DNA of 64,000 nt from Prevotella sp. (GCA_016291495.1 JAEEXI010000006.1:1-64000), one strand, 5' to 3'; positions 2,764 through 58,484 are shown, numbered from the stretch's first letter. Notes: a model not told the origin generated them from the sequence alone. Numbers and translations are program-made.

Positions 2764-4113
2764 ATGATGAAAAATATGAAACGAACAATGATGACTGGGC
2801 TCATCCTTCTGCTGACGACCCTGATGTACGGGCAGAAGAAATGGACACTACAAGAGTGTATTGACTATGCCATACAGAACAATATCACCCTACAACAGGC
2901 AAGACTGAAGAAACAGTCTGCCACAGAAGACAAGAAACAATCACAGGCTGCCCTGTTTCCTTCTCTGACGGCATCCACCAATCAGGGCGTAGGCTATCGC
3001 CCATGGCAGTCGTCTGGTATGGCCACCGTCTCCAACGGCACGGTAAACACCTCAGTCAACAAGACCTACTACAACGGCTCATACAATATCAATGCGTCTT
3101 GGACGGTATGGAACGGTAATCAGAACCGCAACCAAATCAAGCTCAAAGAAGTCAGCGAGGAGCAGGCAGAACTGACCGTTGCCGAGACCGCCAACTCCAT
3201 TCAGGAGAAGATTGCACAGCTGTATGTACAGATTCTCTATATGGATGAGGCCATCAAAGTCAACAAAGAGAGTGTGGAGACCAGCAAGAAAAATGAGGAA
3301 CGTGGCAAGGAGATTGTGGAAGTCGGTAAGATGTCGAAAGCCGACCTTGCCCAGTTGACGGCACAAAGAGCATCTGATGAATATACTTTGGTTGAGTCGG
3401 AGAGTAATCTCGCCAATTACAAGTTACAACTGAAGCAACTTTTGGAAATTACAGGTGACGAGCCTTTCGATGTTGCGATACCTGCCACTACCGACGAGCA
3501 GGCACTTGCCGAAATTCCGTCACTGGGCAGTGTCTATGAGACAGCCCTATCCTACCGTCCAGAGATCCAGAACTCCGAGTTGAGTCTCAAATCCAGTGAC
3601 CTGCAGATGAAGATTGCCAAGGCAGGGCATCTGCCAACCCTCAGTATGACAGGAGGTTTAGGAACGAGTACTGCCTCTATGAGCTCCAGCGAATGGGGCA
3701 ACCAGTTGAAGACCAACTTCGATGCTACCCTTGGAGCATCCATCAGTATACCCATCTTCGACAACCGTAAGACGAAGACGGCTATCAACAAGGCCAAGAT
3801 ACAGCGTGAGCAGGCATTGCTTGACATTCAAGACAAACAGAAACAACTCTACTCCACCATTGAAGGCTTCTGGCTTGATGCCAACACCAACCAGCAGAAA
3901 TTCAAGGCAGCTCAAATTGCCGTTGCCAGTGAACAAGAAAGTTACAACCTCTTATCTGAGCAGTTCAACGTTGGCCTGAAGAATATCGTAGAACTCCTGA
4001 CGGGCAAGGATAAGTTACTTGCTGCCCAGCAAAGCAGACTGCAGAGTAAGTACATGACCATCCTTGATCAGCAATTGCTCCGTTTCTACAAAGGAGAAAA
4101 TATGAGTCTGTGA
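2764..4113 (+). CDS. TolC family outer membrane efflux protein
   Basis: Signal peptide, WTLQECIDYAIQNNITLQQARL N-terminus, two OEP-like repeats. Confidence 0.9.
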   Translation: MMKNMKRTMMTGLILLLTTLMYGQKKWTLQECIDYAIQNNITLQQARLKKQSATEDKKQSQAALFPSLTASTNQGVGYRPWQSSGMATVSNGTVNTSVNKTYYNGSYNINASWTVWNGNQNRNQIKLKEVSEEQAELTVAETANSIQEKIAQLYVQILYMDEAIKVNKESVETSKKNEERGKEIVEVGKMSKADLAQLTAQRASDEYTLVESESNLANYKLQLKQLLEITGDEPFDVAIPATTDEQALAEIPSLGSVYETALSYRPEIQNSELSLKSSDLQMKIAKAGHLPTLSMTGGLGTSTASMSSSEWGNQLKTNFDATLGASISIPIFDNRKTKTAINKAKIQREQALLDIQDKQKQLYSTIEGFWLDANTNQQKFKAAQIAVASEQESYNLLSEQFNVGLKNIVELLTGKDKLLAAQQSRLQSKYMTILDQQLLRFYKGENMSL

Positions 4114-4138
4114 GAGGTGAGAAGTAAAAAGTAAGAAA
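4111..4138 (+). repeat. Heptamer array A (TGAGAGG TGAGAAG TAAAAAG TAAGAAA)
   Basis: 7-bp period read directly; the first unit supplies the TolC stop codon. Confidence 0.75.
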
Positions 4139-4155
4139 ACAAAGATATAACAGAT

Positions 4156-5352
4156 ATGAAGAACAAAAAAATCTGGATAGGTGTAGGCGCTGTAGTCCTC
4201 ATCATCCTTGCCTACTTCCTTTTATCAGGTGGTAAAAAAGAAGAAAAAGTGTCGTTTGATACGGCCAAAGTCGAGAAATTAAACATTAGTACGAGTATTA
4301 CAGCCACAGGCACTATCGAGCCTGTGACCTCCGTAACTGTCGGTACACAGGTCAGCGGTATCGTATCAAAACTCTATGTCGACTACAACAGTGTCGTCAA
4401 GAAAGGACAGGTCATTGCCGAGCTTGACAAGACCAACCTTATCAGTGAGCTGAATACTGCCAAGGCGAATCTTTCCAGTGCCCAGAGTACGCTGAACTAC
4501 GAACTTGCCAACTACAACCGTTTCAAGACCCTTTACGACAAAGGGCTCGTCAGTGCCGACGACTATGAAAATGCGAAACTCTCTTACGACAAGGCACGGC
4601 AGTCTGTGGCCTCTTCCCGTGAGAGTGTCCAGAAGGCTCAGACCAACCTCGGTTATGCCACTATCACCTCCCCCATCGACGGTGTCGTGCTCTCTAAGTC
4701 GGTAGAGGAAGGCCAGACCGTTGCCGCTTCCTTCAATACTCCTGAGTTGTTTACCATTGCCCAGGACCTCACCAACATGCGTGTCATTGCCGATATTGAT
4801 GAAGCTGACATTGGTGGTGTCAAGGAAGGACAGCGTGTTACCTTCACCGTTGACGCCTTCCCCGACGACTCTTTCGAGGGAAGTGTTACCCAAGTGCGCC
4901 AGCAAGCGACTACGGAGAGTAATGTGGTTACCTATGAAGTTGTCATCTCCGCCCCCAACAATGACCTGAAGCTAAAGCCAGGGCTGACCGCCAACGTCAC
5001 CATCTTCACCTTAGAGAAAAATGGTGTGATGGCCGTCCCTGCCAAGGCACTCCGTTTCACTCCCAATGAGCTACTCCTCTCCAAGGGAGAACAGATTGAT
5101 GATTGTGAAGGTGACCATAAGGTATGGACTAAGGAAGGAAACACCTTCAAGGCCCACAAGGTAGAGGTCGGGACGAGCAACGGCATGCTCACAGAGATTG
5201 TCAGTGGCATCAGCGAAGGAACGGAAGTTCTCGTCGACTTCAATATTTCTGGCGGCGAGGCAGCAGGCGGCGAGCAACAAGCCAGCAACCCGTTCATGCC
5301 ACGTCCTCGAAACAATAACAAGCAAAACAACCAACAACAGAAGAAGCAGTAG
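4156..5352 (+). CDS. MacA/HlyD-type periplasmic adaptor subunit
   Basis: Single TM, VGTQVSGIVSKLYVDYNSVVKKGQVIAELD lipoyl-like motif, coiled coil; between tolC and ABC genes. Confidence 0.9.
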   Translation: MKNKKIWIGVGAVVLIILAYFLLSGGKKEEKVSFDTAKVEKLNISTSITATGTIEPVTSVTVGTQVSGIVSKLYVDYNSVVKKGQVIAELDKTNLISELNTAKANLSSAQSTLNYELANYNRFKTLYDKGLVSADDYENAKLSYDKARQSVASSRESVQKAQTNLGYATITSPIDGVVLSKSVEEGQTVAASFNTPELFTIAQDLTNMRVIADIDEADIGGVKEGQRVTFTVDAFPDDSFEGSVTQVRQQATTESNVVTYEVVISAPNNDLKLKPGLTANVTIFTLEKNGVMAVPAKALRFTPNELLLSKGEQIDDCEGDHKVWTKEGNTFKAHKVEVGTSNGMLTEIVSGISEGTEVLVDFNISGGEAAGGEQQASNPFMPRPRNNNKQNNQQQKKQ

Positions 5353-5355: not shown

Positions 5356-6138
5356 ATGGAGGTAACAGCTAATAGCAAACAGCCAACAGCTGACCGAAAA
5401 GTAGTCATCGAACTGCAAAATGTGAAGCGATACTTCCAAGTAGGCAGTGAGACGGTGAAGGCATTGCGTGGTGTGTCGTTCAAGATTTACGAAGGTGAAT
5501 TTGTCACCATCCAGGGTACCTCCGGCTCCGGTAAGTCGACCCTGCTCAACCAACTCGGTTGTCTTGACACCCCAACCAGCGGAGAATACTTCCTTGACGG
5601 TGTCTCCGTCCGTACCATGTCGAAGACCCAACGTGCCCATCTGCGCAACCAGAAAATCGGTTTTGTATTCCAAAACTACAACCTGCTGGCGAAGACCACT
5701 GCCGTAGAAAATGTGGAATTACCGCTGATGTACAACAACAAATATGATGCCAAGCAACGACGTGCCGCTGCCGTCAAGGCTTTGGAGGCTGTCGGACTCG
5801 GCGACCGTTTGGAGCATAAGTCAAACCAAATGTCCGGTGGACAGATGCAACGTGTCGCCATTGCCCGTGCCCTGGTTAACGAACCCGCTGTACTTCTTGC
5901 CGACGAAGCGACAGGTAACCTCGACACCCGCACCTCTTTTGAGATGCTCGTCCTCTTCCAGGAACTCTACAAGCAGGGGCACACCATCATCTTCGTAACC
6001 CACAACCCTGAGATTGCCGAATACAGCAGCCGCAACATCAACCTGCGAGACGGCAAAATACGTGAGGATACTGTCAATACGAACATCAAGTCGGCAGCAG
6101 AGGCCCTTGCCAAGCTACCACAACCCGTAGATGATTAA
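5356..6138 (+). CDS. MacB/LolD-type ABC transporter ATP-binding protein
   Basis: Walker [13 protein letters not shown], signature [15 protein letters not shown], Walker [12 protein letters not shown]. Confidence 0.95.
5364..5391 (+). repeat. Heptamer array B, intragenic (AACAGCT AATAGCA AACAGCC AACAGCT)
   Basis: 7-bp period encoding the N-terminal extension [11 protein letters not shown] of the ABC ATPase. Confidence 0.6.
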
Positions 6139-14157: not shown

Positions 14158-14216
14158 CAAAGATACAAAAAACTCTTAACTCTTAACCATTAACTCTTAA
14201 CTTTTTATTATCTTTG
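14158..14216. promoter_or_regulatory. Divergent promoter cassette malQ/mltG: CAAAGATA (14158-14165) and TATCTTTG (14209-14216), 43 nt apart
   Basis: Both match TAnnTTTG on opposite strands; the spacer is a heptamer array. Confidence 0.7.
14172..14206 (+). repeat. Heptamer array E (ACTCTTA ACTCTTA ACCATTA ACTCTTA ACTTTTT)
   Basis: 7-bp period read directly. Confidence 0.85.
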
Positions 14217-15263: not shown

Positions 15264-15268
15264 AAAAT

Positions 15269-15292
15269 GCCCCTTGCTTCACAGCGAGGGGC
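15269..15292. terminator. Bidirectional intrinsic terminator (GCCCCTtGCTtcacAGCgAGGGGC)
   Basis: GC-rich inverted repeat with T-rich tracts on both sides. Confidence 0.8.
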
Positions 15293-15351
15293 TATTTTAT
15301 TTCGGTATTAGTCCTTTTAAGGTAAAAAGATTGTATTCAGGATAACGCCTG

Positions 15352-15359
15352 CAAAGGTA
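15352..15359 (-). promoter_or_regulatory. Minus-strand -7 box (CAAAGGTA on + strand) with no annotated gene downstream
   Basis: TACCTTTG on the minus strand, about 60 nt upstream of the 15269-15292 terminator. Confidence 0.4.
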
Positions 15360-15426
15360 CGGCCTTTTTAACTTCTGAACAAATATTTTCACATGTTTAA
15401 TAACATATTTTCAGTGGAAGATGAAA

Positions 15427-15454
15427 TAATTCTTAATTCATAATTCTTAATTCT
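15427..15454 (+). repeat. Heptamer array F (TAATTCT TAATTCA TAATTCT TAATTCT)
   Basis: 7-bp period just upstream of the glnS -7 box TAACTTTG (15466-15473). Confidence 0.8.
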
Positions 15455-15500
15455 TATTTTATTTGTAACTTTGCAAACCAAATAAACATCATAATAAATC

Positions 15501-20407: not shown

Positions 20408-21505
20408 ATGGAAAACGGAAAAGTCGCTCTGATAACCGGTATTACAGGACAGGATGGTTCCTATCTGGCCGAGTTCTTAATCGAGAAAGGTTATGAGGTG
20501 CACGGTCTGCTTCGCCGTTCATCCTCTTTCAACACAGGAAGAATCGAGCACCTCTACCTGGATGAGTGGGTGCGTGACATGAAGAAGAAACGTCTGGTCA
20601 ATCTGCACTGGGCAGACATGACAGACTCCTCGTCGCTGATTCGTGTCATTGGCGAGGTGAAGCCTACGGAAATATACAACTTAGCGGCACAGAGTCACGT
20701 AAAGGTGTCGTTCGACGTTCCTGAATATACAGCTGACGTGGATGCTGACGGCGTATTGCGCCTGTTGGAGGCTGTGCGCATCTGCGGACTGGACAAGTCG
20801 TGTCGCATCTATCAAGCCTCAACATCCGAACTGTATGGCAAGGTACAGGAGGTTCCACAATCGGAGACTACCCCATTCTATCCCCGATCGCCATATGCAG
20901 TAGCTAAGCTCTATGGCTTTTGGATTATGAAGAACTACCGTGAGTCGTACGGTATGTACTGCTGCAACGGCATTCTGTTCAACCATGAGAGTGAACGCCG
21001 AGGCGAGAACTTCGTGACGCGTAAGATTACGCTGGCTGCAGCCCGCATTGCTCAAGGTTATCAAGACAAACTGTATTTGGGAAACCTGAACTCGCTGCGT
21101 GACTGGGGTTATGCCAAAGACTACATCGAGTGCATGTGGCTTATCCTACAACAGCCCGAACCCGACGACTTCGTGATTGCCACTGGTGAATACCATACCG
21201 TACGCGAATTCACCACGCTCGCCTTCAAGGAGGTTGGCATTGAACTGGAATGGCGTGGCGACGGTACCGATGAAAAAGGCTACGACAAAGCTACAGGCAA
21301 AGCATTGGTCGAAGTCGACCCGAAGTATTTCCGTCCTGCCGAAGTTGACCAGTTGCTGGGTAATCCTTCCAAAGCCAAGGCAAAGCTAGGTTGGAATCCA
21401 CAGAAGACATCGTTCGAGGACCTTGTAAAGATTATGGTTCGACACGACATGAAGTTCGTGAAGAAACTGTTCCTGAAAGCACAAATGGACAAGGAGGAGA
21501 TATAA
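20408..21505 (+). CDS. gmd: GDP-mannose 4,6-dehydratase
   Basis: [33 protein letters not shown]. Confidence 0.96.
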
Positions 21506-21544
21506 GAGGTGAGAGGTGAGAGGTAAGAGGTGAGAAGTTAGAAG
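21503..21544 (+). repeat. Heptamer array G (TAAGAGG TGAGAGG TGAGAGG TAAGAGG TGAGAAG TTAGAAG)
   Basis: Six 7-bp units filling the gmd-fcl gap; the first supplies the gmd stop. Confidence 0.9.
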
Positions 21545-22575: not shown

Positions 22576-23412
22576 ATGCAACCTATAAAAACCCTGAACG
22601 ACATGATTATCTTCCTGCGGGAACGGGGAGACCGTAAACGTGTGGCCGTAGTATCAGCCAGTGATGCCAGTACTCGTTATGCTGTAGAGAAAGGTAAGGA
22701 GATGGGATTCATCGAACCCCTATATATTGATGGCGATGACAAGGAAGAATGTGCCCAACGAGCTGTGGCTCTCTGTAAGAATGGTGAAGCCGACATCCTG
22801 ATGAAGGGTCTTATCAATACTGACGTATTGCTGCGTGCCATCTTAGACAAAGAGAAAGGTATTATCCGCCCTGGACACGTATTGACCCATGTGGCGATGG
22901 CCGAGATTCCCAAATATGAGAAACTGCTTTTCTTCACCGATGCTGCCGTTATTCCTGTTCCTACCCCATCCCAGCGACGCCAACAGATTCATTATATGAA
23001 CTACGTATGTCACGCTATGGGCATTGAGGAGCCACGCATCTCACTCATCCATTGTGCCGAGAAAGTGAGTAGCAAGGCTTTCCCCTATACAGCCGACTAT
23101 CTCGACATTATCGCAGAGGCACAGACGGGATGCTTCGGACGTTGTATCATCGACGGACCGCTTGACTTGAAGACATCACTTGACGCTGTCAGCCTACATG
23201 AGAAAGGGATTCACAGTATCATTGACGGACAGGCCGACGCCCTCATCTTTCCCGATATCGTGGCCGGTAATGTCTTCTACAAGACATTGACGCTTTTTGC
23301 TTATGCCAAGACGGCCGGTGTACTACAAGGTACCCTCTGTCCTTGTGTGGTATCTTCACGTGCCGATAGTCCTGACTCCAAGTATTATTCACTTGCCTTG
23401 GCTGCCATCTGA
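22576..23412 (+). CDS. ptb: Phosphate butyryltransferase/phosphotransacetylase family
   Basis: PTA_PTB-like (ADILMKGLINTDVLLRAIL); adjacent to a butyrate kinase. Confidence 0.85.
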   Translation: MQPIKTLNDMIIFLRERGDRKRVAVVSASDASTRYAVEKGKEMGFIEPLYIDGDDKEECAQRAVALCKNGEADILMKGLINTDVLLRAILDKEKGIIRPGHVLTHVAMAEIPKYEKLLFFTDAAVIPVPTPSQRRQQIHYMNYVCHAMGIEEPRISLIHCAEKVSSKAFPYTADYLDIIAEAQTGCFGRCIIDGPLDLKTSLDAVSLHEKGIHSIIDGQADALIFPDIVAGNVFYKTLTLFAYAKTAGVLQGTLCPCVVSSRADSPDSKYYSLALAAI

Positions 23413-23465
23413 CCGCTCACCTCTCACCCCTCACCGCTCACCTCTCACCCCTCACCTCTCACCCC
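23410..23465 (+). repeat. Heptamer array H (TGACCGC then TCACCTC/TCACCCC/TCACCGC, 8 units)
   Basis: Eight 7-bp units filling the ptb-buk gap and ending 1 nt before the buk ATG. Confidence 0.92.
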
Positions 23466-23466
23466 T

Positions 23467-32649: not shown

Positions 32650-32651
32650 GA

Positions 32652-32679
32652 GCATTGAACATTGAACATTGAGCATTGA
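32652..32679 (+). repeat. Heptamer array K (GCATTGA ACATTGA ACATTGA GCATTGA)
   Basis: 7-bp period; contains the probable TTG start (32669) of the next CDS. Confidence 0.85.
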
Positions 32680-33550
32680 AAAAAAAATATCCATCATAAC
32701 CGTCAATTACAACGGCGTAAAGGATACCTGTGAATTGATGGAGTCATTACCTTTGGATGACGAGTCTTTAGAGGTAATCGTGGTGGATAATGATTCTTTC
32801 CAAGATGAGGCTTCAGAAATTGAGAAGTGTTTCCCACAAGTCTTTGTTATCAGAAGTGATAAGAACTTAGGCTTTGCAGGAGGCAATAATCTTGGAATCC
32901 AAGCGGCACATGGCAAATACCTTTTCTTTATTAATAACGACACTATCATCCATCAACCATCAGCCATCAGCCATCTGATGAATCGTTTAGATTCATCTCC
33001 CTCGATTGGAATGGTATGTCCTAAGATTCGGTTCAGTTGGGGAAGCCAACAGATACAGTATGCAGGATATACGCCACTGTCTCCGATTACTTTGCGCAAC
33101 CAATCGATTGGATGCGGAGAGGAAGACCAGGGACAATATGATGCACCCCACCCTACACCGTATGCTCATGGCGCTGCCATGATGGTGAAACGAGAAGTGA
33201 TTGAGAAAGTAGGCATGATGCCTGAGTGTTACTTTCTCTATTATGAGGAGCTCGACTGGTCGGAGATGATAAGCCGTGCTGGTTATGAGATATGGTATGA
33301 ACCTACTTGTACGATCTTCCACAAGGAAAGTCAGACAACAGGTCGTATGTCACCATTGAAGATCTATTATATCACCCGCAACCGCCTGCTCTTTGCCCAA
33401 CGGAATGTCAAAGGATGTGCAAAATACCTGTCATTTCTCTACCTGATAGGTATTGTGGCACCCAAGGATATCCTGAAACATTTCTGTCAGGGAAACCTCA
33501 ATCTCTCAAAAGCGGTAATAAAAGGAATTATGGATTTTATCAAACTATAA
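32669..33550 (+). CDS. Family 2 glycosyltransferase (rhamnosyltransferase-like)
   Basis: ISIITVNYNGVKDTCELMESL, NLGFAGGNNLGIQAA, FINNDT. Confidence 0.9.
   Translation: MSIEKKISIITVNYNGVKDTCELMESLPLDDESLEVIVVDNDSFQDEASEIEKCFPQVFVIRSDKNLGFAGGNNLGIQAAHGKYLFFINNDTIIHQPSAISHLMNRLDSSPSIGMVCPKIRFSWGSQQIQYAGYTPLSPITLRNQSIGCGEEDQGQYDAPHPTPYAHGAAMMVKREVIEKVGMMPECYFLYYEELDWSEMISRAGYEIWYEPTCTIFHKESQTTGRMSPLKIYYITRNRLLFAQRNVKGCAKYLSFLYLIGIVAPKDILKHFCQGNLNLSKAVIKGIMDFIKL
32950..32977 (+). repeat. Heptamer array L, intragenic in GT2 (CCATCAA CCATCAG CCATCAG CCATCTG)
   Basis: 7-bp period encoding HQPSAISHL after NNDTII. Confidence 0.6.
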
Positions 33551-41320: not shown

Positions 41321-41326
41321 AGCCTA

Positions 41327-41354
41327 GTTAAGAGATAAGAGTTAATAGTTAAGA
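41327..41354 (+). repeat. Heptamer array O (GTTAAGA GATAAGA GTTAATA GTTAAGA)
   Basis: 7-bp period; the next unit GTTTATG overlaps the ATG at 41359. Confidence 0.8.
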
Positions 41355-41358
41355 GTTT

Positions 41359-42719: not shown

Positions 42720-42747
42720 TTGAACATTGACCATTGAACATTGAGTT
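42720..42747 (+). repeat. Heptamer array P (TTGAACA TTGACCA TTGAACA TTGAGTT)
   Basis: 7-bp period. Confidence 0.75.
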
Positions 42748-42818: not shown

Positions 42819-43439
42819 TCACAAAAGTACATTAAATCTCAAAACAAGAACAGCCACAGTCTGGCTTACGGAAAGTACTATGCAACCGCTGTTTACGACA
42901 GCAACTTCGTAGGCACTGAGGAACTGGCTGAGTTCATCCAGCGCCAGGCTTCCGTGAAAAAGAGTGACATCAAGGCCGTTCTTCAGGAATTGGGTGAGGC
43001 CCTCAAGCATTTCTTCGAGATGGGCCAGAAGGTACGTCTTGACGGTATCGGTATCTTCAAGGTAGGCTTCAGCTCTATCGGTGTCACCAAGTTGGACGAC
43101 TGCAGCGCAGCCACCATCACCACCCGCCGTGTATTGTTCCAGCCCGAAACTACTCGTGTGGTTGTCGGTCAGGAGAAGAAAGACGACGGCTCTGTCAAGC
43201 AGAAGTACGTCAATGCCATCACCCTCCTGAAGGACGTGGTCTTCGAAGAGACCCACGACAATGCCATGAATGTCGAGTCCGACTCTGCAAGTTCCGGAAG
43301 CGGTTCGAGCGCCGGTTCGAATAGCGGTAGCGACACCGGATCAAACGGCGGTAGCAACTCCGGATCAGATGGCGGCAACACTGGTGGCGATTCCGGTGGC
43401 GACTCCGGTAACAACGGAGGAGGCTCAGATCCTAATTAA
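42816..43439 (+). CDS. HU-family DNA-binding protein with Ser/Gly/Asn/Asp-rich C-terminal tail
   Basis: Bacteroidales HU-like domain (YYATAVYDSNFVGTEELAEFIQRQASVKKSDIKAVLQELGEAL) followed by a low-complexity tail. Confidence 0.8.
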   Translation: MSQKYIKSQNKNSHSLAYGKYYATAVYDSNFVGTEELAEFIQRQASVKKSDIKAVLQELGEALKHFFEMGQKVRLDGIGIFKVGFSSIGVTKLDDCSAATITTRRVLFQPETTRVVVGQEKKDDGSVKQKYVNAITLLKDVVFEETHDNAMNVESDSASSGSGSSAGSNSGSDTGSNGGSNSGSDGGNTGGDSGGDSGNNGGGSDPN

Positions 43440-44429: not shown

Positions 44430-47400
44430 ATGAAAAAGTTAACTTTAGTATTATTCACGCTACTGACCCTAATTCCAACAAATACATGGGCAGGAGAAGG
44501 ATATGTTGAGGATGTCTATTATGAATATGAGGGAGATTATGCCACCGTTAAATTCTGTCTCGATTCTAAAGAAATAATTGAAATTCCTCATGATTTCACT
44601 ATTGACGGACACCTTTACACAGTTAATGCCATTGCTCCAACGGCTTTCAATGGCTGTAGCGAGTTGAAGGCATTGATATTTAAGGGTCCTACATTACCAA
44701 CAATGAAAAACGTGGAATTCGAAAATGTTCCAGAAAACCTTGTAATCGCTTTTAATAATATCATGTACACCCACCAAGGAACATGGAACAATGGAGACTC
44801 CTTCACCGTAACGGGGGTGACAACTTACGGCAAGAATGACCTAAACTTTACTAATTACGAGATTATAGATGCCATTAACAATATTCATGTATCAGGTATT
44901 GCCAGCGATGCGTTCAATGGATGTAACTATATGACAATATTGGCGTTTAAGGGTTCTACATTACCGACCATGAATCATGTGGAATTCGAAGATGTCTCAG
45001 AAGACCTTGTAATCGCTTTTAATCATATCAAGTACACCCATCAAGGGACATGGAATAGCGGAGACTCATTCAAAGTAACAGGAGTTTCTGACAAAACTCT
45101 CACAAGTTACGAGATAACAGGTGCAATCAATCAAGGTGTTTATAATAATGTGACAACCATTGCCAATGATGCGTTCAGTGGATGTAGCAATATAAAAACA
45201 TTGGCAATTCCTACAATACCAATAATGAATAATGTGGAACTAGAAGGTGTTCCACAAGACCTAACTGTCACCTATAAAAACATTAAATATACCCATCAAG
45301 GATCATGGATTGGTGGAGGTTCTTTTACTGTGACGGGGGTAATTGATAATACATTATCTAATTACGAAATTATAACTACCATCAATAGTAAAATTGTATC
45401 AATAGCTAGCGAGGCTTTCAATGGATGTAACTATATGACGACATTGGCATTTATTGGTTCTTCGTTACCAACAATGAATAATGTGCAATTCTTAAATGTA
45501 CAACCAAGCCTTGTTATCACTTTTATGGGCATCAAATATAAGCATAACGGAGCATGGAACAATGGAGACTCGTTCAAAGTAACAGGAACATCCACTGATT
45601 CTTATTACTCCACATTAGAGATTTTAGATGCCATCAACAAAATTAATGTTACAGAAATTAGCGACAAAGCGTTTACTGGCTTACAAAACAAAGAAGTTAT
45701 TATCTCAAAGAATATTAATACCATTAGCATTTCTGCGTTTAGCAATTTCACTAATGGCGGTATAGATAATGCAAATCGCCTTTCTGGTATCACTGTTGAT
45801 GATAATAATACCAAGTATTTTAGTCACAACGGTGTTTTATATTCACGCTATAATCAAGGAACAGAGGAAGTTATTGAGTTGGTTACTTGCCCTGTTAAAA
45901 ACAATTATTCCAATATTTGGTTTGATGGTGTTACTGCCATTGGAAATAATGCTTTTATATGTCATAGAAATCTCTCTTCCATCACCATCCCTGCCACAGT
46001 AAAGACCATCGGTGAGAGTGCCTTTAACTTGGCAGGAGCCGATGCGCCCTCCCCCTTGAATGTCACCTTTGCTGAAGAAGGTAGTTGCTTGACAACTATA
46101 GGAAAATGTGCTTTCCAAAATAGTGGTGTTGCCGCAATAGTATTACCAGAAGGACTCAAAGAGATTGGAGAGAGTGCATTTAGGTATTGTTCAAGACTAA
46201 CTACCACTATATTCCCATCTTCCCTAGAGAAATTAGGCGGTAGTGCTTTCGAAGGATGTAAAAAATTAGAACATATCACTTTTTCAGGAAATAAGTTAAA
46301 AATTATACCTGCCCGTGCTTTTTTCAATTGCTTGCTAGAAAAACCTTTTATGATACCAGATGGAATTACTGACATTAAAGACAATGCTTTTAATGTAGAG
46401 GACTTTACTTCAAATTTAAGTTTTCTTCCAAGTGAAGTTCGAATTCCATCTTCCGTCCAGAATATTGCTGATACTGCATTCCCCTATGGGGTAACTAAAC
46501 AGTATAAACTAAACCTTTCTTTTGGGAATGAGGAAGAATGGGCCACCTACTATTCTTTAGACAATCTAGAATTGCCAACAGGAATAAAAGCATGGGCTAT
46601 CACAGGATTTGACTCGGAAGATAAAACCAAACTGAATACAGAAGAACTCCATTATATCCATAAAGAAGAGGCCATTCTTCTCCAAAGGACAGAGGGAGCA
46701 GCTCTTAACGATTTCTGGTGTGGCGTACCTTCAACAGATAATATAGCTGCAGATGCAGGAAAGAGTTCCAATACTGACATATTCAAAGGCTCTACCGCCG
46801 AAATCACGAATTTCTCCTCTATTTCTGGCGACAAATATGTACTAAATGGCAATCAGTTTGTGAAAACAAATCAAGGTTCACTTCCTGCCTTCCGCTGTTA
46901 TATCGTACGCCCCAATGCAAATGATCCGACAGAACATCTGTATTTCAAGAACAATGGTGAAAATAGCGACCATACTTTCATCTTTAAGGAGGATGGAACG
47001 CTTATCAATTATGACGCCTCCAAAGGTTCAGCAAAACTTGAGACGGTGGCAAAGAATAAGATGCAGTTGACTATTACCCCAGGTACGAATTATTATGCTT
47101 ATTATGATGATGAGAATTATAAAGATATTACTAAAAGCGATATCACCGTTAGACGCAATGTAACAGCCGCAAGTGGACGTGCTGCTGCAATTGGTCTTGA
47201 TAATACTTTTTACGAACTTACTCCAGGAGAAGATTCCAGTCAAGATAAATGTGGAGCTATAGTCTATACTTTTAATCCTGGCGAAGCAACTGTTTTTGAA
47301 GTGACGGTCAACTTCCATAAGCGTATTAACTTCCAAGCCGCAGAAACTAAACCAAAGGTAAATCTTCAAACCGGCACCAATTACATCTATGATGGAACAG

Positions 47401-50400
47401 CCCATAAGCCAGAAGTTCTCTCTGTTACCTATGGCGATAATGAGACCGAAGTGGACCGCGAAAATTACGACATTGTCTATACGGATAGCATTAATGCTGG
47501 TAAGGGCAAAGTTATCATTAAAGGAAAGCGTAAGTTCATGAGCGAATTTCATGGAGAATACACAATTAAAAGACGTAACATCAATGATATCCAGACCAAT
47601 GTTATTGCCGACCAAATCTATAATGGTAATGAAATTAAGCCTGATTTAGGAATCAAATACGGAGATGTCACTATTACAGAAGGGACTGATTATACATTAA
47701 AATGGGAAAATAATACCAATGTGAATACTAGTGGAGACGATGGAAAAAATGCTAAAGTTTCTATCATCGCAAAGGAAGGAAACTACACAAGTACAAAAGT
47801 CGTTTATTTCAAAATCATACCCAAAGACCTCTCTACAGAGGAGAACAAAGCGACCATCACTATTCCCGCAAAGAATTATACCGGTTTTGCCATTGAACCA
47901 ACAGACGAAATCACGGTAAAAGACGGCGACAAAACTTTAGAGTTTGGCACAGACTATGACGTTGAATATCCTTACAACGACAATATAGAAGCCGGAGAAA
48001 ATGTTGCTACCGCCATAATTACATTTAAGGGGAACTATAAGGGCACATTAGAGGAAAAATTCACTATTGTAGATCCTGGTCTTGAAAGAAACGTTACTGT
48101 CAGCTTCGATAGTGAAAACGAGTGGACAACCTACTACGCTTCGGAAAACCTCAAACTGACTAACGAACTTGAGGCATACATAGTGACTGGCATAGAGGGG
48201 CAGAAAGTCAATACAGAGAAATCTGAGAGCACCAATAAGGTATCTTTCATACCTAAGAACACTGCTGTATTGCTGCATCGTATCAGTGGTTCAAAAACTT
48301 CATTCGATGTCAAGACATGCTCTGGTGAGAAACTTCCCACAACGATTATACCTGATAATCGTTTCATAGGGACATCAGCAGCATTAGACATTTCGACTAT
48401 TCCTGGTTATAAGTTCATCCTTCTCAATGGTGAATTTATACAGGCAACAGAAGGTACGCTATTTACCAATCGATGCTATATCGTAGTACCTGAGCCTATC
48501 GATGGAGTTAGCACGCTGACAATAGGAAAAAGCTCAGACGGAATCATTTATATGTTGGGAGACAAGGAGAACAATACTATTGGCAAAGCTACCAAGTCCG
48601 AGCCAAAGGATGGGAAGGTTACTCTGACTATCAACCCTAATGACGGTTACTATGTAGAAGACGTCAAGGTCGTACGCGCTGCTAATGCAACGACTGCTCG
48701 TGCACCACAAATCAACATTGACAATAGTGAAGTAGAGGTAACACCAGAAGCTGTTACTGACAATACCGACTTCACTTCAACATATACATACACCTATCTC
48801 CATCAACAAAACTATGACTATCAAGTAACTGTTTTCTTCAAGCAGAGTACGAACCTGCAGGGAAATGTAGGACAGATTGCACCGATAGTTGACCTCGAAT
48901 ACAACAAGTCTGCTCAGGAGCCCCAGCCCGTTGTCAAGGTTGGCGAGACGACACTGGTAGAAGGAATAGACTATAAGGTCAGATATGAGAATAACGTGGA
49001 ACCGGGAAATGCAAAAGTCTATGTCAACGGTATACGCAAATATACCAAGGAGATTAACAGGGAATTCAAAATCAAGCAGCGCGACATCAATCATGCCACG
49101 CTGAAGGGTATTGAGAACTTGAAAGAACCCCTGGTCTACACTGGCAAAGACATTAACATTCTGGTGGAGGACCTCGTTGGAGAGACCAATATCATTGATG
49201 ACAGTGAATATATGCTCACCTGCATAGATCAGAATAAGAATGAAGACAAGAAGAACGCAGGCAAGCATACGGCTACTATCACCGGTAAGAACCACTATAC
49301 AGGAACGAAGCCTGTTGAGTTCGAGATTCTGAAAAAGGAGATGAAAGACGAGAATGTCGATGAAATCGGTGAGCAGCAATATGACGGCGGCAAGGCTATT
49401 GAACCCAAGCTCACCATCAAGTATGGCGAGAACACGTTTGTAGAGGGAACGGACTATGACGTCGAATGGAAGGACAACGTGGAGGCTGGAGAGGCTACCG
49501 CCACCATCACCTTCAAGGGCAACTATACGGGAACGGTGGTAAAGAAGTTTACTGTCACAGATCCAGGTCTTGAAAGAAACGTTACTGTCAGCTTCGATAG
49601 TGAAAACGAGTGGACGACCTACTACCCTGCCGAGAACCTTAAATTGGATGACGTGGCAACGGAACTGGAGGCATGGGTTGTGACTGGACGTGACGGCAGG
49701 ACAGTGAACACGAAGAAAGTAGAGTTCATTCCTAAGGGAATACCCGTCCTGCTCCACCGTATTGGCGGAGAAAAGACTTCGTTCGATGTAAAAACCTGCT
49801 CAGGAAGAAAACTAGAAAATGTTACACCTGACAACGAACTCTTCAAGGGAACCTTGGAAGGTCTGGATATCTCCACTGTCAGCGGAACGAAGTTTGTACT
49901 CCTTAACGGTGAGTTCGTACAAACGACAACCGGAACGCTGGCTGCCAACCGCTGCTATATCATGGTAAACGAGCCGATTGAGGGTGTTACCACCCTGAAT
50001 ATCAACAAAGCTACCGACGGTATCACCTATTACGATGAGAAAGGAAACGAAATTGCCGACAACGTCCTCGGAACTGCCACTAAATCTGTAAAGGACAATG
50101 TGGTGACCCTGACCGTGAAACCCAAGAAGGGCTACTACGTGGAGCCTTCTGACATCACCGTTATCCGCAGTACACAGGCTGGAAACGGACGCGCACAGGC
50201 TATCGACGGTGGTAAGGTAGAAATGACTGCCGGTACCATCACTGAAAATGAGGACTACACCTCTAACTACCCCTTCACCTATCCGTTTGTTGCCGACTGC
50301 GACTACCAAGTGGCGGTCAACTTCAAGAAGGCTACCAACCTACAGGAAGCAGGCAAACAGCCTGACATCAACTTTAAAGAGACTGTATATGACGGAACAG

Positions 50401-53400
50401 AACAGAAGACTGAGCCCACCGTCACTACCTACGACAAGAAGGAACTGACAAAGGATGTCGACTACAAGCTCGTCTATCCTGATGACGACTATACCAAGGC
50501 TGCAAATGGCAAGAAGGTGTCAGTCATCGGTATCCGCAAGTATGTCAACGGACTCGACAGGACATTCAATATCGAGAAGCGTAACGTCAATATGGTGACC
50601 TTCTGTGCCAAAGAGGGACAGACCTGGGTAGAAGGACATACCCCGGCAGATGAAACGCCTCAGATAGTCTTCACCGGTTCTGCCATCGAACTGGACATCG
50701 CTGATTTCGTCAATGACAAGAACATCCTCACCGATGAGGAGGCAACGATAACCTACGCTGCAGACATTACCAATGCAGGAAAAACTTCCGTCACCGTCAA
50801 GAGCAAGGGTGTCAACTACCAAGGTGAGAAGACGTTCAACTATACGATTCTGCCCAAGGAGATGACTGCCGACGACATCGCAGACATTCCTGAGCAGACA
50901 TATACCGGCAGTGAGATCAAGCCAAGCCTCACCATTAGGTATGGCAAGATCAAATTGATGGAAGGTGACGACTATGACGTGACATATACTGACAACGTCA
51001 AGGCTGGAACAGCTACCGCTACGGTTAACTTCAAGGGCAACTACGCTGGTGAGAATATCACGAAGACCTTCACCATTGTGGATATGGAGGAGACACTCAC
51101 CATCAACTTCGACAGCGAGAACGAATGGACAACCTACTACGGTACCAGGAATCTGGAGCTGACAGATGCCTTGAAGGCCTATGTGGTGACCGGACATAAC
51201 GGCAAGGAAGTACTGACGGAAGAGGTGAACTTCATCCCGAAGGAGACCCCTGTCCTGCTCCATCGCATCAGTGGTACTGACACCTCGTTCGATGTCATGA
51301 CCTGCTCGGGTAAGACTTTGCCCGGCAACATCCATCCCAGCGACATCTTCAAGGGAACCTTGAAAACCCTGAACATCTCCACTGTCGACGGAACGAAGTT
51401 CGTGCTCTTCAACGGACAATTCGTACAGACGGCAACCGGAACGCTTGCAGCCAACCGCTGCTACCTGACAGTTAAGGATCCTATCGATGGCGTCACCACC
51501 CTGAATATCAACAAGGGCATCAGTCAAGTCATCACCTTGGAGGAAGGTCAGGAGAGCACTGCTGGTGGTTCGGCACGTATCATCACCACACCAGACGAGA
51601 ACAATAACCTGATACTGATCGTATCACCTAACTCCAGCTACTATGCCGACCTCGAGGACCTCACGGTGGTCTATAGCGTAAAGGCAAGTTCGGGACGTGC
51701 TCCTGAGGTAGCTCCCAGCAAGGTAGAACTGACACCTGTCGCCGGATACGATAACACGAGCAAGGAGTTCCGTTATACCTTCCCAAATACAGATGGATAC
51801 TTCTATCAGGTGACGGTCAACTTCCATAAGTGTATTAACTTCCAGACCAAGGAGACTCAGCCGAGCATCACTCTCGAAGAAGGTTCTTATGTCTACGACG
51901 GTACAGAGAAAAAACCTAAGGTTGCCTCTGTGACGATGTTCGACGGAACTGTGACACTGACAGAAGGCAAGGATTTCACCATCTCTTACCAGAATAACAT
52001 CAATGCTGGTGCTGCAAAGGCTATCATTACAGGCAAGAACCACTACACCTCGACATTCCATAAGGACTTCTATATCGCCCAGCGTGACATCAAGCTCGTC
52101 ACCGTGGAGGCTATTCCCGACCAGACTTACAATGGCGGTGAGATTGAACCAGAAATCGTGGTCAAGGACATCGTCCAAATCGACGGTGTCGATGTAGACC
52201 TTATTAATAAGGTAGAGAACAAGCCCGACTATACCCCGGAGTACTTCGACAATATCTATGCCGGAACAGCCAAGGTGAATATCATTGCCAACAGTATCAA
52301 CTACACGGGTGTCAAGACCGGAACCACCTTTGAGATCAAGCCCAAGAACCTGAACCTGGAAGGCAACGAACCGACCATCGATCCGATTGAGCCGAAGATC
52401 TACACTGGTGAACCTATAGAGCCTGACTTGGTCATCAGAGACGGAGACCTCGTCGTTCCCGCCGACAACTACGATGTGGAGTATAAGGATAACATCGTGG
52501 AAGGAACGGCTACCGCCATCATCAACTTCAAGAAGAACTACGAGGGAAAGGCCACGACCAACTTCGAGATTACCTATAAGAAAGAAAGGAAACAACTGTA
52601 CGTCGACTTTGGTAGTCAGGACGAGTGGACGACCTACTACTCCCCCATCGACCTTGACAACGTGGAAGGACTGAACATCTTTGTGGTCACCGGTCTTAAC
52701 AAGGGACAGGGTCTTGACCTCAAGACTGAGCTGATCAACTACATCCCCAAGAACATCGGAGTTCTCCTGCAGCGTACAGACAAGACCAAGACAGAATTCT
52801 TCGGAGAGACCATGTCAAGTACTACGAAACTGGAGGGTGTGACACCTGACACAGACCTGTACAGGGGCACCATCACAGGAATCGACAACTTAAAGGCCAT
52901 CGACGACGGTATCAAGTATATCCTCTTGAACGACCGTTTCATACAGGTGGTTGAGGGAGCACTGCCTGCCTACCACTGCTACGTCTTCATCAATAATGAC
53001 AATAACGAAGGCATTAACCATGTAGAGGGAGAAGATGCCGATGGTATTGTCATCCAGGAGGAAGGAGAAGACAGCAAGACAGCTGGAACGGTTACTGTCT
53101 CAGGAGTATCCTCTGACGGCTACAAGACCATCACGGTCACACCAGCCTCTGTCAACTATGCTACCATGGATGAAGTGAAGGTAGTTCGCAGCATCAAGAA
53201 CGAAATGCCTGCCACTTCGTCTCACCGTGTGCCGGGCATCGAGAATACCCTGGTGGAAGTTATTCCTGTGAATTCTTCTGCCGACCCCAGTGGCACGACG
53301 TACTACAAATTCAAATATGAAGATGCCTACCACTATCAGGTTACTGTTGACTTCCAGAATCGTGTCAACCTGTCTGATATTGCCATCAGCCATCCCGTCG

Positions 53401-54494
53401 TTACACTGAAGGCAGCGGATATCCAGAATCTGGAATATGACGGTAGCGAGAAGAGACCAACCGTTGAAAAAGTCACCTGCAACAACGTGGTGGTTGACCC
53501 GAGCAATTATGACATCAGTTATGAGAATAACGTCAATGCAGGTATGCCACGTGTGATTATTACAGGTAAGCGCTTCCTCATGGGCTCCACACATGCGGAG
53601 TTCAGCATCAGCAAACGTAACTTCAGCCATGTCACTGTAGAGGAGCCCATCGCTGACAAGGAATACACGGGTCTTCCTATCACACCGACCGTTGTCATCA
53701 AGGATATCGTCAACGACAAGAACATTGTTAATAGCAATGATTATGAACTCGTCCTCGAGAATAACATTGAAGAGGGAACTGCTAAGGTGACCATCAAGCC
53801 GAAGAACAACTATTACGGTAGTTATAAGGACTATTACTTCAACATCATACCTTCAACAGTTGTCAAGGGCGATGCCAATGCAGATGGTTTCGTGAATGTG
53901 ACAGACATCGTAGCAACGGTGAACTTCATCATGGAAAGACCTTCTCCAAACTTTACCAAGGTAGGGGCAGACGTGAATGGTGATGGTGTAATCAATGTAA
54001 CGGATATCGTGAAGATGGTGTCCATCATCATGTCTGGTAACAGTTCTTCTACACGTCGTGCTGCTACAACTGGCAACATGGTATTCAATGGTACTGGCAT
54101 TCAGTTGAAGAATGCCGAGGACTATACAGCAGCGCAGTTTGACATCAATCTAAGTGATGGCCAGTCCGTCTGTGATGTTTTCCTGAACGGCAGTAGCGAC
54201 CACAGTCTGACATGGAAGATGGTCAATAACAACACCTGTCGTGTTGTTGTCTATTCGATGACCAATGAGCCATTCGGTGCTAATGGTGATAACCTGATTA
54301 ATATCATGATGACTGGCAGTCAGGATGCTGCTATCAGCAATGAGATCCTGGTTAGAAATGATGGCGTAACAGCTATTGATGCTATCCGTATGGAGACTGA
54401 AGACGGAAAGATATTCGATTTGCGTGGTCGTCAAGTGAAGAATCCAAGAAAGGGTCTCTACATCATTAATGGCAAGAAAGTGATTATCAAATAA
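44430..54494 (+). CDS. Giant (3354 aa) modular surface protein: BspA-like LRR N-terminus, five approx. 1.5 kb WTTYY/MBG-like modules, dockerin-like domain, T9SS type A-like sorting C-terminus
   Basis: Signal peptide; LRR_5-like segments; repeated (S/N)FDSENEWTTYY modules; KGDANADGFVNVTDIVATVNFI...GADVNGDGVINVTDIV; C-term FDLRGRQVKNPRKGLYIINGKKVIIK. -7 box TACCTTTG at 44381-44388. Confidence 0.9.
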   Translation: MKKLTLVLFTLLTLIPTNTWAGEGYVEDVYYEYEGDYATVKFCLDSKEIIEIPHDFTIDGHLYTVNAIAPTAFNGCSELKALIFKGPTLPTMKNVEFENVPENLVIAFNNIMYTHQGTWNNGDSFTVTGVTTYGKNDLNFTNYEIIDAINNIHVSGIASDAFNGCNYMTILAFKGSTLPTMNHVEFEDVSEDLVIAFNHIKYTHQGTWNSGDSFKVTGVSDKTLTSYEITGAINQGVYNNVTTIANDAFSGCSNIKTLAIPTIPIMNNVELEGVPQDLTVTYKNIKYTHQGSWIGGGSFTVTGVIDNTLSNYEIITTINSKIVSIASEAFNGCNYMTTLAFIGSSLPTMNNVQFLNVQPSLVITFMGIKYKHNGAWNNGDSFKVTGTSTDSYYSTLEILDAINKINVTEISDKAFTGLQNKEVIISKNINTISISAFSNFTNGGIDNANRLSGITVDDNNTKYFSHNGVLYSRYNQGTEEVIELVTCPVKNNYSNIWFDGVTAIGNNAFICHRNLSSITIPATVKTIGESAFNLAGADAPSPLNVTFAEEGSCLTTIGKCAFQNSGVAAIVLPEGLKEIGESAFRYCSRLTTTIFPSSLEKLGGSAFEGCKKLEHITFSGNKLKIIPARAFFNCLLEKPFMIPDGITDIKDNAFNVEDFTSNLSFLPSEVRIPSSVQNIADTAFPYGVTKQYKLNLSFGNEEEWATYYSLDNLELPTGIKAWAITGFDSEDKTKLNTEELHYIHKEEAILLQRTEGAALNDFWCGVPSTDNIAADAGKSSNTDIFKGSTAEITNFSSISGDKYVLNGNQFVKTNQGSLPAFRCYIVRPNANDPTEHLYFKNNGENSDHTFIFKEDGTLINYDASKGSAKLETVAKNKMQLTITPGTNYYAYYDDENYKDITKSDITVRRNVTAASGRAAAIGLDNTFYELTPGEDSSQDKCGAIVYTFNPGEATVFEVTVNFHKRINFQAAETKPKVNLQTGTNYIYDGTAHKPEVLSVTYGDNETEVDRENYDIVYTDSINAGKGKVIIKGKRKFMSEFHGEYTIKRRNINDIQTNVIADQIYNGNEIKPDLGIKYGDVTITEGTDYTLKWENNTNVNTSGDDGKNAKVSIIAKEGNYTSTKVVYFKIIPKDLSTEENKATITIPAKNYTGFAIEPTDEITVKDGDKTLEFGTDYDVEYPYNDNIEAGENVATAIITFKGNYKGTLEEKFTIVDPGLERNVTVSFDSENEWTTYYASENLKLTNELEAYIVTGIEGQKVNTEKSESTNKVSFIPKNTAVLLHRISGSKTSFDVKTCSGEKLPTTIIPDNRFIGTSAALDISTIPGYKFILLNGEFIQATEGTLFTNRCYIVVPEPIDGVSTLTIGKSSDGIIYMLGDKENNTIGKATKSEPKDGKVTLTINPNDGYYVEDVKVVRAANATTARAPQINIDNSEVEVTPEAVTDNTDFTSTYTYTYLHQQNYDYQVTVFFKQSTNLQGNVGQIAPIVDLEYNKSAQEPQPVVKVGETTLVEGIDYKVRYENNVEPGNAKVYVNGIRKYTKEINREFKIKQRDINHATLKGIENLKEPLVYTGKDINILVEDLVGETNIIDDSEYMLTCIDQNKNEDKKNAGKHTATITGKNHYTGTKPVEFEILKKEMKDENVDEIGEQQYDGGKAIEPKLTIKYGENTFVEGTDYDVEWKDNVEAGEATATITFKGNYTGTVVKKFTVTDPGLERNVTVSFDSENEWTTYYPAENLKLDDVATELEAWVVTGRDGRTVNTKKVEFIPKGIPVLLHRIGGEKTSFDVKTCSGRKLENVTPDNELFKGTLEGLDISTVSGTKFVLLNGEFVQTTTGTLAANRCYIMVNEPIEGVTTLNINKATDGITYYDEKGNEIADNVLGTATKSVKDNVVTLTVKPKKGYYVEPSDITVIRSTQAGNGRAQAIDGGKVEMTAGTITENEDYTSNYPFTYPFVADCDYQVAVNFKKATNLQEAGKQPDINFKETVYDGTEQKTEPTVTTYDKKELTKDVDYKLVYPDDDYTKAANGKKVSVIGIRKYVNGLDRTFNIEKRNVNMVTFCAKEGQTWVEGHTPADETPQIVFTGSAIELDIADFVNDKNILTDEEATITYAADITNAGKTSVTVKSKGVNYQGEKTFNYTILPKEMTADDIADIPEQTYTGSEIKPSLTIRYGKIKLMEGDDYDVTYTDNVKAGTATATVNFKGNYAGENITKTFTIVDMEETLTINFDSENEWTTYYGTRNLELTDALKAYVVTGHNGKEVLTEEVNFIPKETPVLLHRISGTDTSFDVMTCSGKTLPGNIHPSDIFKGTLKTLNISTVDGTKFVLFNGQFVQTATGTLAANRCYLTVKDPIDGVTTLNINKGISQVITLEEGQESTAGGSARIITTPDENNNLILIVSPNSSYYADLEDLTVVYSVKASSGRAPEVAPSKVELTPVAGYDNTSKEFRYTFPNTDGYFYQVTVNFHKCINFQTKETQPSITLEEGSYVYDGTEKKPKVASVTMFDGTVTLTEGKDFTISYQNNINAGAAKAIITGKNHYTSTFHKDFYIAQRDIKLVTVEAIPDQTYNGGEIEPEIVVKDIVQIDGVDVDLINKVENKPDYTPEYFDNIYAGTAKVNIIANSINYTGVKTGTTFEIKPKNLNLEGNEPTIDPIEPKIYTGEPIEPDLVIRDGDLVVPADNYDVEYKDNIVEGTATAIINFKKNYEGKATTNFEITYKKERKQLYVDFGSQDEWTTYYSPIDLDNVEGLNIFVVTGLNKGQGLDLKTELINYIPKNIGVLLQRTDKTKTEFFGETMSSTTKLEGVTPDTDLYRGTITGIDNLKAIDDGIKYILLNDRFIQVVEGALPAYHCYVFINNDNNEGINHVEGEDADGIVIQEEGEDSKTAGTVTVSGVSSDGYKTITVTPASVNYATMDEVKVVRSIKNEMPATSSHRVPGIENTLVEVIPVNSSADPSGTTYYKFKYEDAYHYQVTVDFQNRVNLSDIAISHPVVTLKAADIQNLEYDGSEKRPTVEKVTCNNVVVDPSNYDISYENNVNAGMPRVIITGKRFLMGSTHAEFSISKRNFSHVTVEEPIADKEYTGLPITPTVVIKDIVNDKNIVNSNDYELVLENNIEEGTAKVTIKPKNNYYGSYKDYYFNIIPSTVVKGDANADGFVNVTDIVATVNFIMERPSPNFTKVGADVNGDGVINVTDIVKMVSIIMSGNSSSTRRAATTGNMVFNGTGIQLKNAEDYTAAQFDINLSDGQSVCDVFLNGSSDHSLTWKMVNNNTCRVVVYSMTNEPFGANGDNLINIMMTGSQDAAISNEILVRNDGVTAIDAIRMETEDGKIFDLRGRQVKNPRKGLYIINGKKVIIK

Positions 54495-56428: not shown

Positions 56429-56453
56429 TTGCGTTTTTGCACTTAATCAGCCA

Positions 56454-56512
56454 CAAAGATACGAAATAATTGAGATTTGAGAATTGAGATTTGAGAATTA
56501 TTTGTATTTTTG
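56454..56512. promoter_or_regulatory. Divergent promoter cassette: CAAAGATA (56454-56461) and TATTTTTG (56505-56512), 43 nt apart
   Basis: Opposing TAnnTTTG boxes with a heptamer array in between. Confidence 0.7.
56469..56496 (+). repeat. Heptamer array R (ATTGAGA TTTGAGA ATTGAGA TTTGAGA)
   Basis: 7-bp period read directly. Confidence 0.9.
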
Positions 56513-56529
56513 CATTTGAAAAAGATAAA

Positions 56530-57408: not shown

Positions 57409-58417
57409 AACTAACTCCAAACAGATATCTCGCCAAGAATGGACTGAGCCGAAGCACATAACTAGTGACTAGACAAAGTCCCAAGACTCCCAGTGCCAAT
57501 ACCAAAACGACAAAGATCTCCATCCATAGCTGATGACGGGAAAGAAGTAGGTCACGATAAGTCAGCAAGAACTCTGGCAGGAAAAAGAAATGAAGCAGAT
57601 AAATATCCAATGTGCGTGTACCGACATATTGCAGACTGCGCCCAAGAGGTTTCTCTTTGGTAAACCACAAAGCGAACTTACGGAAAAAGGTGAAGACCAT
57701 CACCATACCACAGATACCACTTATCGCAAAGCGCATATAAGCCCATGACCACCAGTCGGTAACCGGCAAGGCCGCCATCAGACAAAACAGTACCACAACG
57801 GTAAACTGTATCCCATGACGGTCAGTCAGTTCAAGGAAACGGTCGAAAAACTTCTTCGCCATGGCTCCCAATACGAAGAAGAGGTAGTAACGCCAAGTGA
57901 CAAAGCCCAGGAATCCCAACACCTCGCGCCCCCACCCCAACTGATGGGCAATGCGGTGATAGGACACATCATACCAGTAGGCTGCCACGGAGATGAGGAA
58001 TGCGGAAAAGAGGAATACAACGGTGCGGCGCCTCTTCACTAACCATGCGGTGAGCGTAAAAAGCACAAAATAGACAAAGAGACCGAACGTAAACCAATAA
58101 CCGCCCTTAAAGGCTCCTAACTGATGAAAGAACTGCGTCCGCTCATGCAGGGCGAGGAAGATGACGGTAGGCACTATCTGCACCATGAACTTATGGCTGA
58201 TGACCTGTCGGACTGTGAGCGAATCCCATATTCGCCCCACCTTATAGAACAGCCAGCCACTGATAAAGAAAAAACTGGGCAGACGTAAAAGGAACAACAC
58301 CTTGTTAAAGGCCATAAAGTAATCGCCGAAACAGAAAATACAGACATGAGAATACACCACGAGAATCATGGTAAATCCCCGCATTGCATCGATATATTCT
58401 ATTCTTGTCTTTGCCAT
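57395..58417 (-). CDS. Acyltransferase-3 family membrane protein
   Basis: RIEYIDAMRGFTMILVVYSH, multiple TM segments. Confidence 0.85.
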   Translation of the reverse strand: MAKTRIEYIDAMRGFTMILVVYSHVCIFCFGDYFMAFNKVLFLLRLPSFFFISGWLFYKVGRIWDSLTVRQVISHKFMVQIVPTVIFLALHERTQFFHQLGAFKGGYWFTFGLFVYFVLFTLTAWLVKRRRTVVFLFSAFLISVAAYWYDVSYHRIAHQLGWGREVLGFLGFVTWRYYLFFVLGAMAKKFFDRFLELTDRHGIQFTVVVLFCLMAALPVTDWWSWAYMRFAISGICGMVMVFTFFRKFALWFTKEKPLGRSLQYVGTRTLDIYLLHFFFLPEFLLTYRDLLLSRHQLWMEIFVVLVLALGVLGLCLVTSYVLRLSPFLARYLFGVSSKDR

Positions 58418-58425
58418 TTCAGATG

Positions 58426-58484
58426 CAAAGATAAGAAAAAATTGAAAATTGAAAATTGAAAATTGAGAATTATTCGTAATTTTG
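58426..58484. promoter_or_regulatory. Divergent promoter cassette: CAAAGATA (58426-58433) and TAATTTTG (58477-58484), 43 nt apart
   Basis: Same geometry as 56454-56512. Confidence 0.7.
58441..58468 (+). repeat. Heptamer array S (ATTGAAA ATTGAAA ATTGAAA ATTGAGA)
   Basis: 7-bp period read directly. Confidence 0.9.

Follow-up and report, generated by a model that had tools for sequence, protein, structure and literature searches.

What are the degenerate tandem heptamers that recur among unrelated genes of a rumen Prevotella? They were predicted from a stretch of 64,000 nucleotides of the assembly GCA_016291495.1 (JAEEXI010000006.1:1-64000, hereafter the window), where short arrays appeared to keep a 7-bp period and a common core while their exact unit changed. 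The glutamyl-tRNA synthetase encoded in the window shares 97% identity with that of a Prevotellaceae genome in a RUG series and 93-96% with those of Prevotella genomes mostly labeled as ruminant samples, which assigns the host to that Prevotella group. Here we report that such arrays are abundant throughout this genome and occur in its relatives, that families of related units are dispersed among many loci, and that array sites persist while the units occupying them are exchanged.

Abundance and period of the arrays

Arrays were called with Tandem Repeats Finder and with a direct lag-7 scan, using score cut-offs of at least 12 (strong) and at least 10 (looser). The lag-7 scan of the window yields 13 strong period-7 arrays and 17 at the looser cut-off, two of the weakest being A/G-rich tracts, whereas first-order Markov simulations of the window (n=60) give a mean of 0.12 arrays at the looser cut-off and 0 at the strong one. 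Every locus listed in the original prediction was recovered at, or a few bases from, its given position, and only its total of about 20 loci proved somewhat high. Across 838 kb of the same genome, labeled G000, 107 period-7 arrays score at least 12 versus none in two Markov shuffles, which bears out a genome-wide excess of 7-bp periodicity.

Other periods in the same 838 kb give far fewer arrays: 17 at period 8, 15 at period 9, 20 at period 11, 9 at period 12, and at most 5 at periods 2-6. Below period 14, the 20 arrays of period 11 are thus the maximum for any period except 7, and periods 14 and 21 are harmonics of period 7. A pattern of five T-R-A steps has 230 matches at spacing 7 in the whole genome versus 8 at spacing 8, and a 50-kb control stretch of E. 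coli contains no array at periods 4-12. Because the same arrays match a backward-read TRA pattern in another phase, that pattern is not independent and is unsuited as a control; spacing 8 and the de novo arrays were used instead. Statistics on relatives were computed without runs of N.

Unit sequence and the T-R-A core

On their best strand and phase, most arrays read TRANNNN. Among the consensus units of the de novo arrays in G000, 87% have TGA or TAA on one of their strands, with TGA observed at 0.66 versus 0.26 in letter-shuffled units, while TAG (0.05 versus 0.25) and CCC/GGG (0.01 versus 0.16) are depleted. Since a few families recur, these G000 statistics are partly pseudo-replicated. 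With each distinct heptamer outside G000 counted once, the values are 0.76 versus 0.58 for T-R-A (z 4.5) and 0.14 versus 0.25 for TAG. The T-R-A core is a real tendency driven by TGA, not a rule: a shared core does exist, as proposed, but it is better written TRANNNN than NNNYYAR.

Unit families including TGAGAGG, TGAANAG, TGANAAT, TGANCAT and TGANGGC recur at many unrelated loci of G000. Inside a family, variation affects only one or two columns, recurrently across many loci: column 4 in TGANAAT, TGANCAT and TGANGGC, column 5 in TGAANAG, and columns 2 and 5 in TGAGAGG. The earlier description of units as similar within a locus and different between loci is therefore only half right, as several families are shared by many loci.

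Dispersal within and across genomes

Within G000, 891 pairs of arrays match at E<1e-3, but only 134 pieces extend at least 40 bp past the array, mostly between neighbours on the same stretch. A mobile element with flanks was rejected, since between-locus similarity almost always ends at the array. Identical consensus units make up 9% of within-genome pairs versus 1.1% of between-genome pairs, and none of 2000 label permutations was as tight. Other genomes have units of their own, such as TGAGAGT in G010, TAAACYG in G008, TGAATGG in G547, and TAACAAC/TGACTAC in G485. Similar arrays are patchy across Bacteroidota, and among Prevotella relatives the array load ranges from almost none to hundreds per genome. 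The dispersed family is thus present genome-wide and in relatives and, as first described, conserves its period and not its exact unit.

Arrays of the TGAGAGG unit were also identified in five IMG/VR contigs with a GC content of 0.53-0.65, so the phenomenon extends beyond Prevotella and low-GC DNA. In the high-GC, phage-like contigs L240, L242 and L243, heptad arrays occur at gene ends, and some open reading frames (ORFs) end in array-encoded residues of the SHLSPLTSPL type; the ORF translations suggest phage tail and tape-measure genes in L240 and L243. The genomes G028, G008, G001 and G051 are rich in period-8 T-R-A arrays, for example TGAACTCT and TAAGGTTA, and the preferred period therefore varies by genome.

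Two further repeats were observed. One is a dispersed element of ~160 bp with inverted TGAGAGG arrays at both ends, whose copies are 97% identical (L038, C18:196640-197020; L028, C18:266320-266500). The other is a second, period-8-like repeat family, CACAGAGACACAGAG...CTCTGT, which adjoins heptad arrays (L009, C11:8800-8900; L038, C18:196670-196720).

Comparison with relatives at fixed sites

The nearest species with long contigs, G381, keeps an array at 7 of 10 alignable sites, about 5 of them with another unit, whereas overall in G000 an array is carried by 31 of 256 gaps (gaps of 20-400 bp on a crude gene map of ORFs of at least 150 aa); sites therefore outlast units. The CATTGAA array at 32650-32679 and the AACTTTC unit at 35193-35217 are found in G381 too, while the site at 32945-32975 has a different unit there with a length difference of +3, and that at 34874-34920 has no array. 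The divergent GH77/YceG gap (14171-14205) is constant in length across several species while its units differ, L053 and G381 having another unit or the opposite strand. Upstream of gltX (15427-15459), relatives carry an array of equal length whose unit is TAAACTC. Likewise, in two paralogous segments of G000 (C11:22157 and C13:16902) the coding flanks are nearly identical but the units unrelated.

Other sites are empty in relatives. In every close relative aligned, the genes on either side of 23409-23466 abut, and the array is found only in the window. At the butyrate kinase loop (23821-23854), relatives either lack the insert or carry a 33-nt insert of another unit, which in L053 is CAACAGC; L203 is 21 nt shorter than L053 at this loop. 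In-frame block inserts in coding sequences measure 33 and 39 nt, neither a multiple of 7. In other Prevotella (loci L202 and L209), the same loop carries inserts with inverted repeats GTCGACGG...CCGTCGAC in place of heptads, a further type of DNA that fills the loop.

Turnover by multiples of 7, a possibility raised in the original prediction, is confined to particular cases. At 21505-21544, where a local seed TAAGAAG/AAAGATG is present, relatives differ by 14, 21 and 35 nt (-21 nt in G244 and -35 nt in G381) and more distant relatives lack the array; one pair of relatives differs by 42 nt. Overall, 24 of 66 ordered pairs of orthologous arrays have zero length difference. Thirty non-zero differences fall below 60 nt; 4 of these are multiples of 7, roughly what chance would give, bearing in mind that array edges are fuzzy and coding sites permit only multiples of 3. 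Whole-unit slippage is thus not the main mode of change between species, and pure slippage by +/-7n was rejected.

Genomic placement

In the 838 kb, 55 arrays are intergenic and 49 lie inside ORFs. Intergenic arrays divide among same-strand, divergent and convergent gaps as 39:11:5, mirroring the 188:47:21 of all gaps; there is therefore no promoter or terminator preference, and a promoter or terminator element was rejected. Same-strand gaps contain 34 TRA-rich arrays, of which 22 have T-R-A on the gene strand and 12 are antisense; the sense arrays often run from the stop codon of the upstream gene to the next start. Inside ORFs, the T-R-A strand is antisense in 38 of 49 arrays and sense in 11, an excess that is as expected if selection removes stop-bearing orientations.

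Origin of the arrays

We judge it slightly better than an even chance that the arrays form a large, fast-evolving class of degenerate heptad tandem repeats, spread by DNA-level processes with no gene-specific function maintained. The alignments demonstrate dispersal, unit swaps, empty sites and a frame filter, whereas the copying steps behind them are inferred. An array may arise through copying of a short stretch in steps of 7 nt or, alternatively, through insertion of a block of an existing array by template switching at micro-homology. Arrays sharing T-R-A every 7 bp could anneal in register, so that conversion or template switching would change the other positions, and such exchange between arrays would spread unit families through the genome. 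Selection would act only as a filter that removes arrays breaking frame or spacing, which would account for arrays in gaps, for constant length between divergent promoters, and for ORF arrays mostly on the stop-free strand.

Several points weigh against this interpretation. For the TGA bias and TAG depletion, a purely neutral model offers only shared ancestry or in-register annealing. As the closest species shares only ~85% identity, birth and replacement are deduced from end states. Length changes between orthologs are not enriched for multiples of 7, making slippage alone insufficient. Moreover, the constant length of arrays between divergent promoters could also reflect function.

Plain replication slippage, in which any local heptamer expands in 7-nt steps through a polymerase favouring 7-nt loops and there is no traffic between loci, is an unlikely explanation. 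The polymerase preference was hypothesised by Mrazek et al. 2007 according to PMC4679880, which also cites heptanucleotide repeats as the commonest class of long simple sequence repeats (SSRs) in most genomes. Slippage accords with the differences around the seed at 21505-21544 and with a 21-nt higher-order repeat at 23412-23463, inside the array at 23409-23466, which fits repeated duplication. However, it does not readily explain why the same degenerate families occupy dozens of unrelated loci per genome and differ between genomes, why orthologous and paralogous sites retain an array yet swap its unit, or why coding inserts and length differences ignore multiples of 7. Binding sites for a sequence-specific, possibly post-transcriptional, regulator or for a nucleoid protein reading T-R-A every 7 bp appear slightly less likely still. 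Such a regulatory role was proposed for TAACTGA repeats in Beggiatoaceae (PMC4679880), and the T-R-A tendency common to unit families, the fixed variable column of each family, and the constant array length between divergent promoters of several species would all suit it; the absence of a gap-type preference or clear strand (22 sense:12 antisense), the arrays inside enzymes, and the gain, loss and unit swaps between close species argue against it.

With lower probability again, an undescribed active process may insert and rewrite heptad arrays at tolerant sites, including enzyme loops, in Bacteroidota and perhaps in other phyla and some phages. This might be, for instance, a polymerase or an annealing activity, coupled to repair, that steps by 7 nt and prefers T-R-A, and if so, new intergenic spacers and new peptide segments would be supplied continually. 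It is very doubtful that an enzyme, be it a reverse transcriptase, an HUH/Y1 transposase or a different polymerase, actively writes the arrays: a templated writer would fit the genome-specific units and the insertion of whole arrays in lengths that are not whole units, but G008 (90% complete, 505 pattern matches) and G019 have no RVT_1 or Y1_Tnp hits, these two being the only families searched, and a search for PF01797 (Y1 transposase) gave no hit in the array-rich G008, G019 and G027. Neither RVT_1 nor Y1_Tnp is therefore required, and dependence on a reverse transcriptase or Y1 transposase was rejected. Least plausible of all is a translational insulator, in which stops in all three frames protect gene ends, a significance hinted at by the original prediction. 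Sense arrays spanning a stop codon to the next start agree with it, but the idea is unsupported because TAG is depleted, 12 of 34 same-strand-gap arrays are antisense, and ORF arrays are mostly antisense, leaving the stop-free strand to be read; a stop-codon function was rejected on the TAG depletion and mixed orientation.

Arrays of the window

The individual arrays are listed in Table 1.

Table 1. Period-7 arrays of the window, with positions counted from its first nucleotide
Array	Position	Strand	Context
Weak array, TGAGAGG TGAGAAG TAAAAAG TAAGAA	4110-4137	+	Score 11.0; gap between OEP outer-membrane gene and HlyD-type gene
Weak array, AACAGCN	5360-5390	.	Score 11.5; at gene junction
TAACTCT	14171-14205	+	Gap of the divergent gene pair GH77/YceG; two -7-like boxes flank the array
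TAATTCW	15427-15459	+	Upstream of gltX
TGAGAGG/TAAGAGG	21505-21544	+	Fills gap between GDP-mannose dehydratase and epimerase genes
CTCACCN on +, TGAGNGG on - (58 nt)	23409-23466	-	Between phosphate butyryltransferase-like and butyrate kinase-like genes
In-frame 33-nt insert	23821-23854	-	Within butyrate kinase coding sequence; 12 residues relative to PDB 1X9J
CATTGAA	32650-32679	+	Between Wzy_C-domain and glycosyltransferase genes
CCATCAG (on +)	32945-32975	-	Within GT2 domain of glycosyltransferase coding sequence, residues 93-103
CCCTCAG (on +)	34874-34920	-	In second glycosyltransferase ORF, residues 36-52
AACTTTC (on +)	35193-35217	-	In the same second glycosyltransferase ORF, residues 143-151
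TAAGAGT	41326-41357	+	Directly upstream of DUF6371 gene
TTGAACA	42720-42744	+	Period-7 array
TTGAGAT	56470-56499	+	Gap between two divergent genes
ATTGAAA	58438-58471	+	Gap between two divergent genes

The array upstream of gltX is the 5' part, in the window, of a conserved intergenic region (15264-15457) whose minus strand has a sub-threshold match to the Bacteroides small RNA BTnc060 (60.3 bits, E 3e-9; gathering score 228.9). An Rfam scan of the window gave no match reaching the gathering score, and the arrays were rejected as Rfam structured RNAs on this basis. The window also encodes a HU-HIG domain protein with tandem repeats of 24 bp and 12 bp in its coding sequence (43312-43409) and contains a single ORF of 3354 aa (44430-54494).

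Relation to known repeat systems

Contrary to initial expectation, this kind of repeat has precedents: degenerate or abundant heptamer arrays are known in cyanobacteria, Xanthomonas, Beggiatoaceae and a few Bacteroidetes (PMC4679880, PMC4692102, PMC2670836). In the open-licence literature, we found no heptanucleotide or heptamer repeats of Bacteroides or Prevotella. The arrays work like known heptamer repeats but fall outside each narrow family by unit sequence or placement.

Short tandemly repeated repetitive (STRR) sequences of filamentous cyanobacteria consist of 7-bp tandem units in many intergenic copies (PMC2670836). The Prevotella arrays are likewise short, degenerate, tandem in 7-bp units and dispersed between genes (55 intergenic arrays in 838 kb; 31 of 256 gaps), but they belong to Bacteroidota, comprise many unit families per genome with a T-R-A tendency, and also occur in coding sequence. 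Cyanobacterial STRR units are of the CCCCART type; no CCCCART/GGGGATT-type unit is among the 107 arrays listed.

TAACTGA direct repeats occur in Beggiatoaceae, Cyanobacteria and five Bacteroidetes (MacGregor 2015, PMC4679880). They share with the present arrays the location in gaps, TAA/TGA in the units, shorter repeat-free gaps in relatives, and an occurrence in some Bacteroidetes. However, in those repeats a single exact unit predominates and heptamers related to it are seldom repeated, whereas here dozens of related degenerate units coexist and TAACTGA is not among the arrays listed from the 838 kb; moreover, theirs lie mostly just upstream of starts in forward orientation, while here contexts are proportional to all gaps and orientation is mixed. 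The G-quadruplex heptamers GGGNATC/GGGGATT of Xanthomonas and Nostoc (PMC4692102) also form abundant, heterogeneous gap arrays that vary in length and sequence between close species, but each of their units has a tract of three or four G, whereas G3 tracts are absent here; the CCC/GGG depletion makes a quadruplex role impossible for most arrays.

A preference for period 7 among long bacterial SSRs is likewise attributed to Mrazek et al. 2007 in PMC4679880 and PMC4692102; relative to the SSRs as cited there, the present arrays have degenerate units, are scattered in families, and undergo replacement at fixed sites. Phase-variation microsatellites have near-identical units and switch expression by changes of unit number within a population; units here are degenerate at one or two columns, and the arrays between divergent promoters hold their length across species. 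Repetitive extragenic palindromic (REP) sequences and bacterial interspersed mosaic elements are mobilised by REP-associated tyrosine transposases, a Y1 dependence from which the array-rich genomes lacking PF01797 hits differ. The predicted distinction from REP, clustered regularly interspaced short palindromic repeats (CRISPR) and ordinary microsatellites is supported.

In a genus dominant in gut and rumen, arrays numbering in the hundreds per genome have been largely overlooked in the literature searched. Because the arrays turn over faster than the flanking DNA and add new residues to enzymes, they offer a measurable route by which intergenic regions and protein loops evolve. The long-standing question of why bacteria prefer heptanucleotide repeats also becomes testable, and the range among Prevotella from almost none to hundreds provides natural contrasts for finding the responsible gene or process. 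The arrays resemble rapidly replaced filler DNA, a kind that has received little study, more than they do a regulatory code, and by analogy we read them as a probable Bacteroidota counterpart of the cyanobacterial STRRs and other bacterial heptanucleotide repeats.

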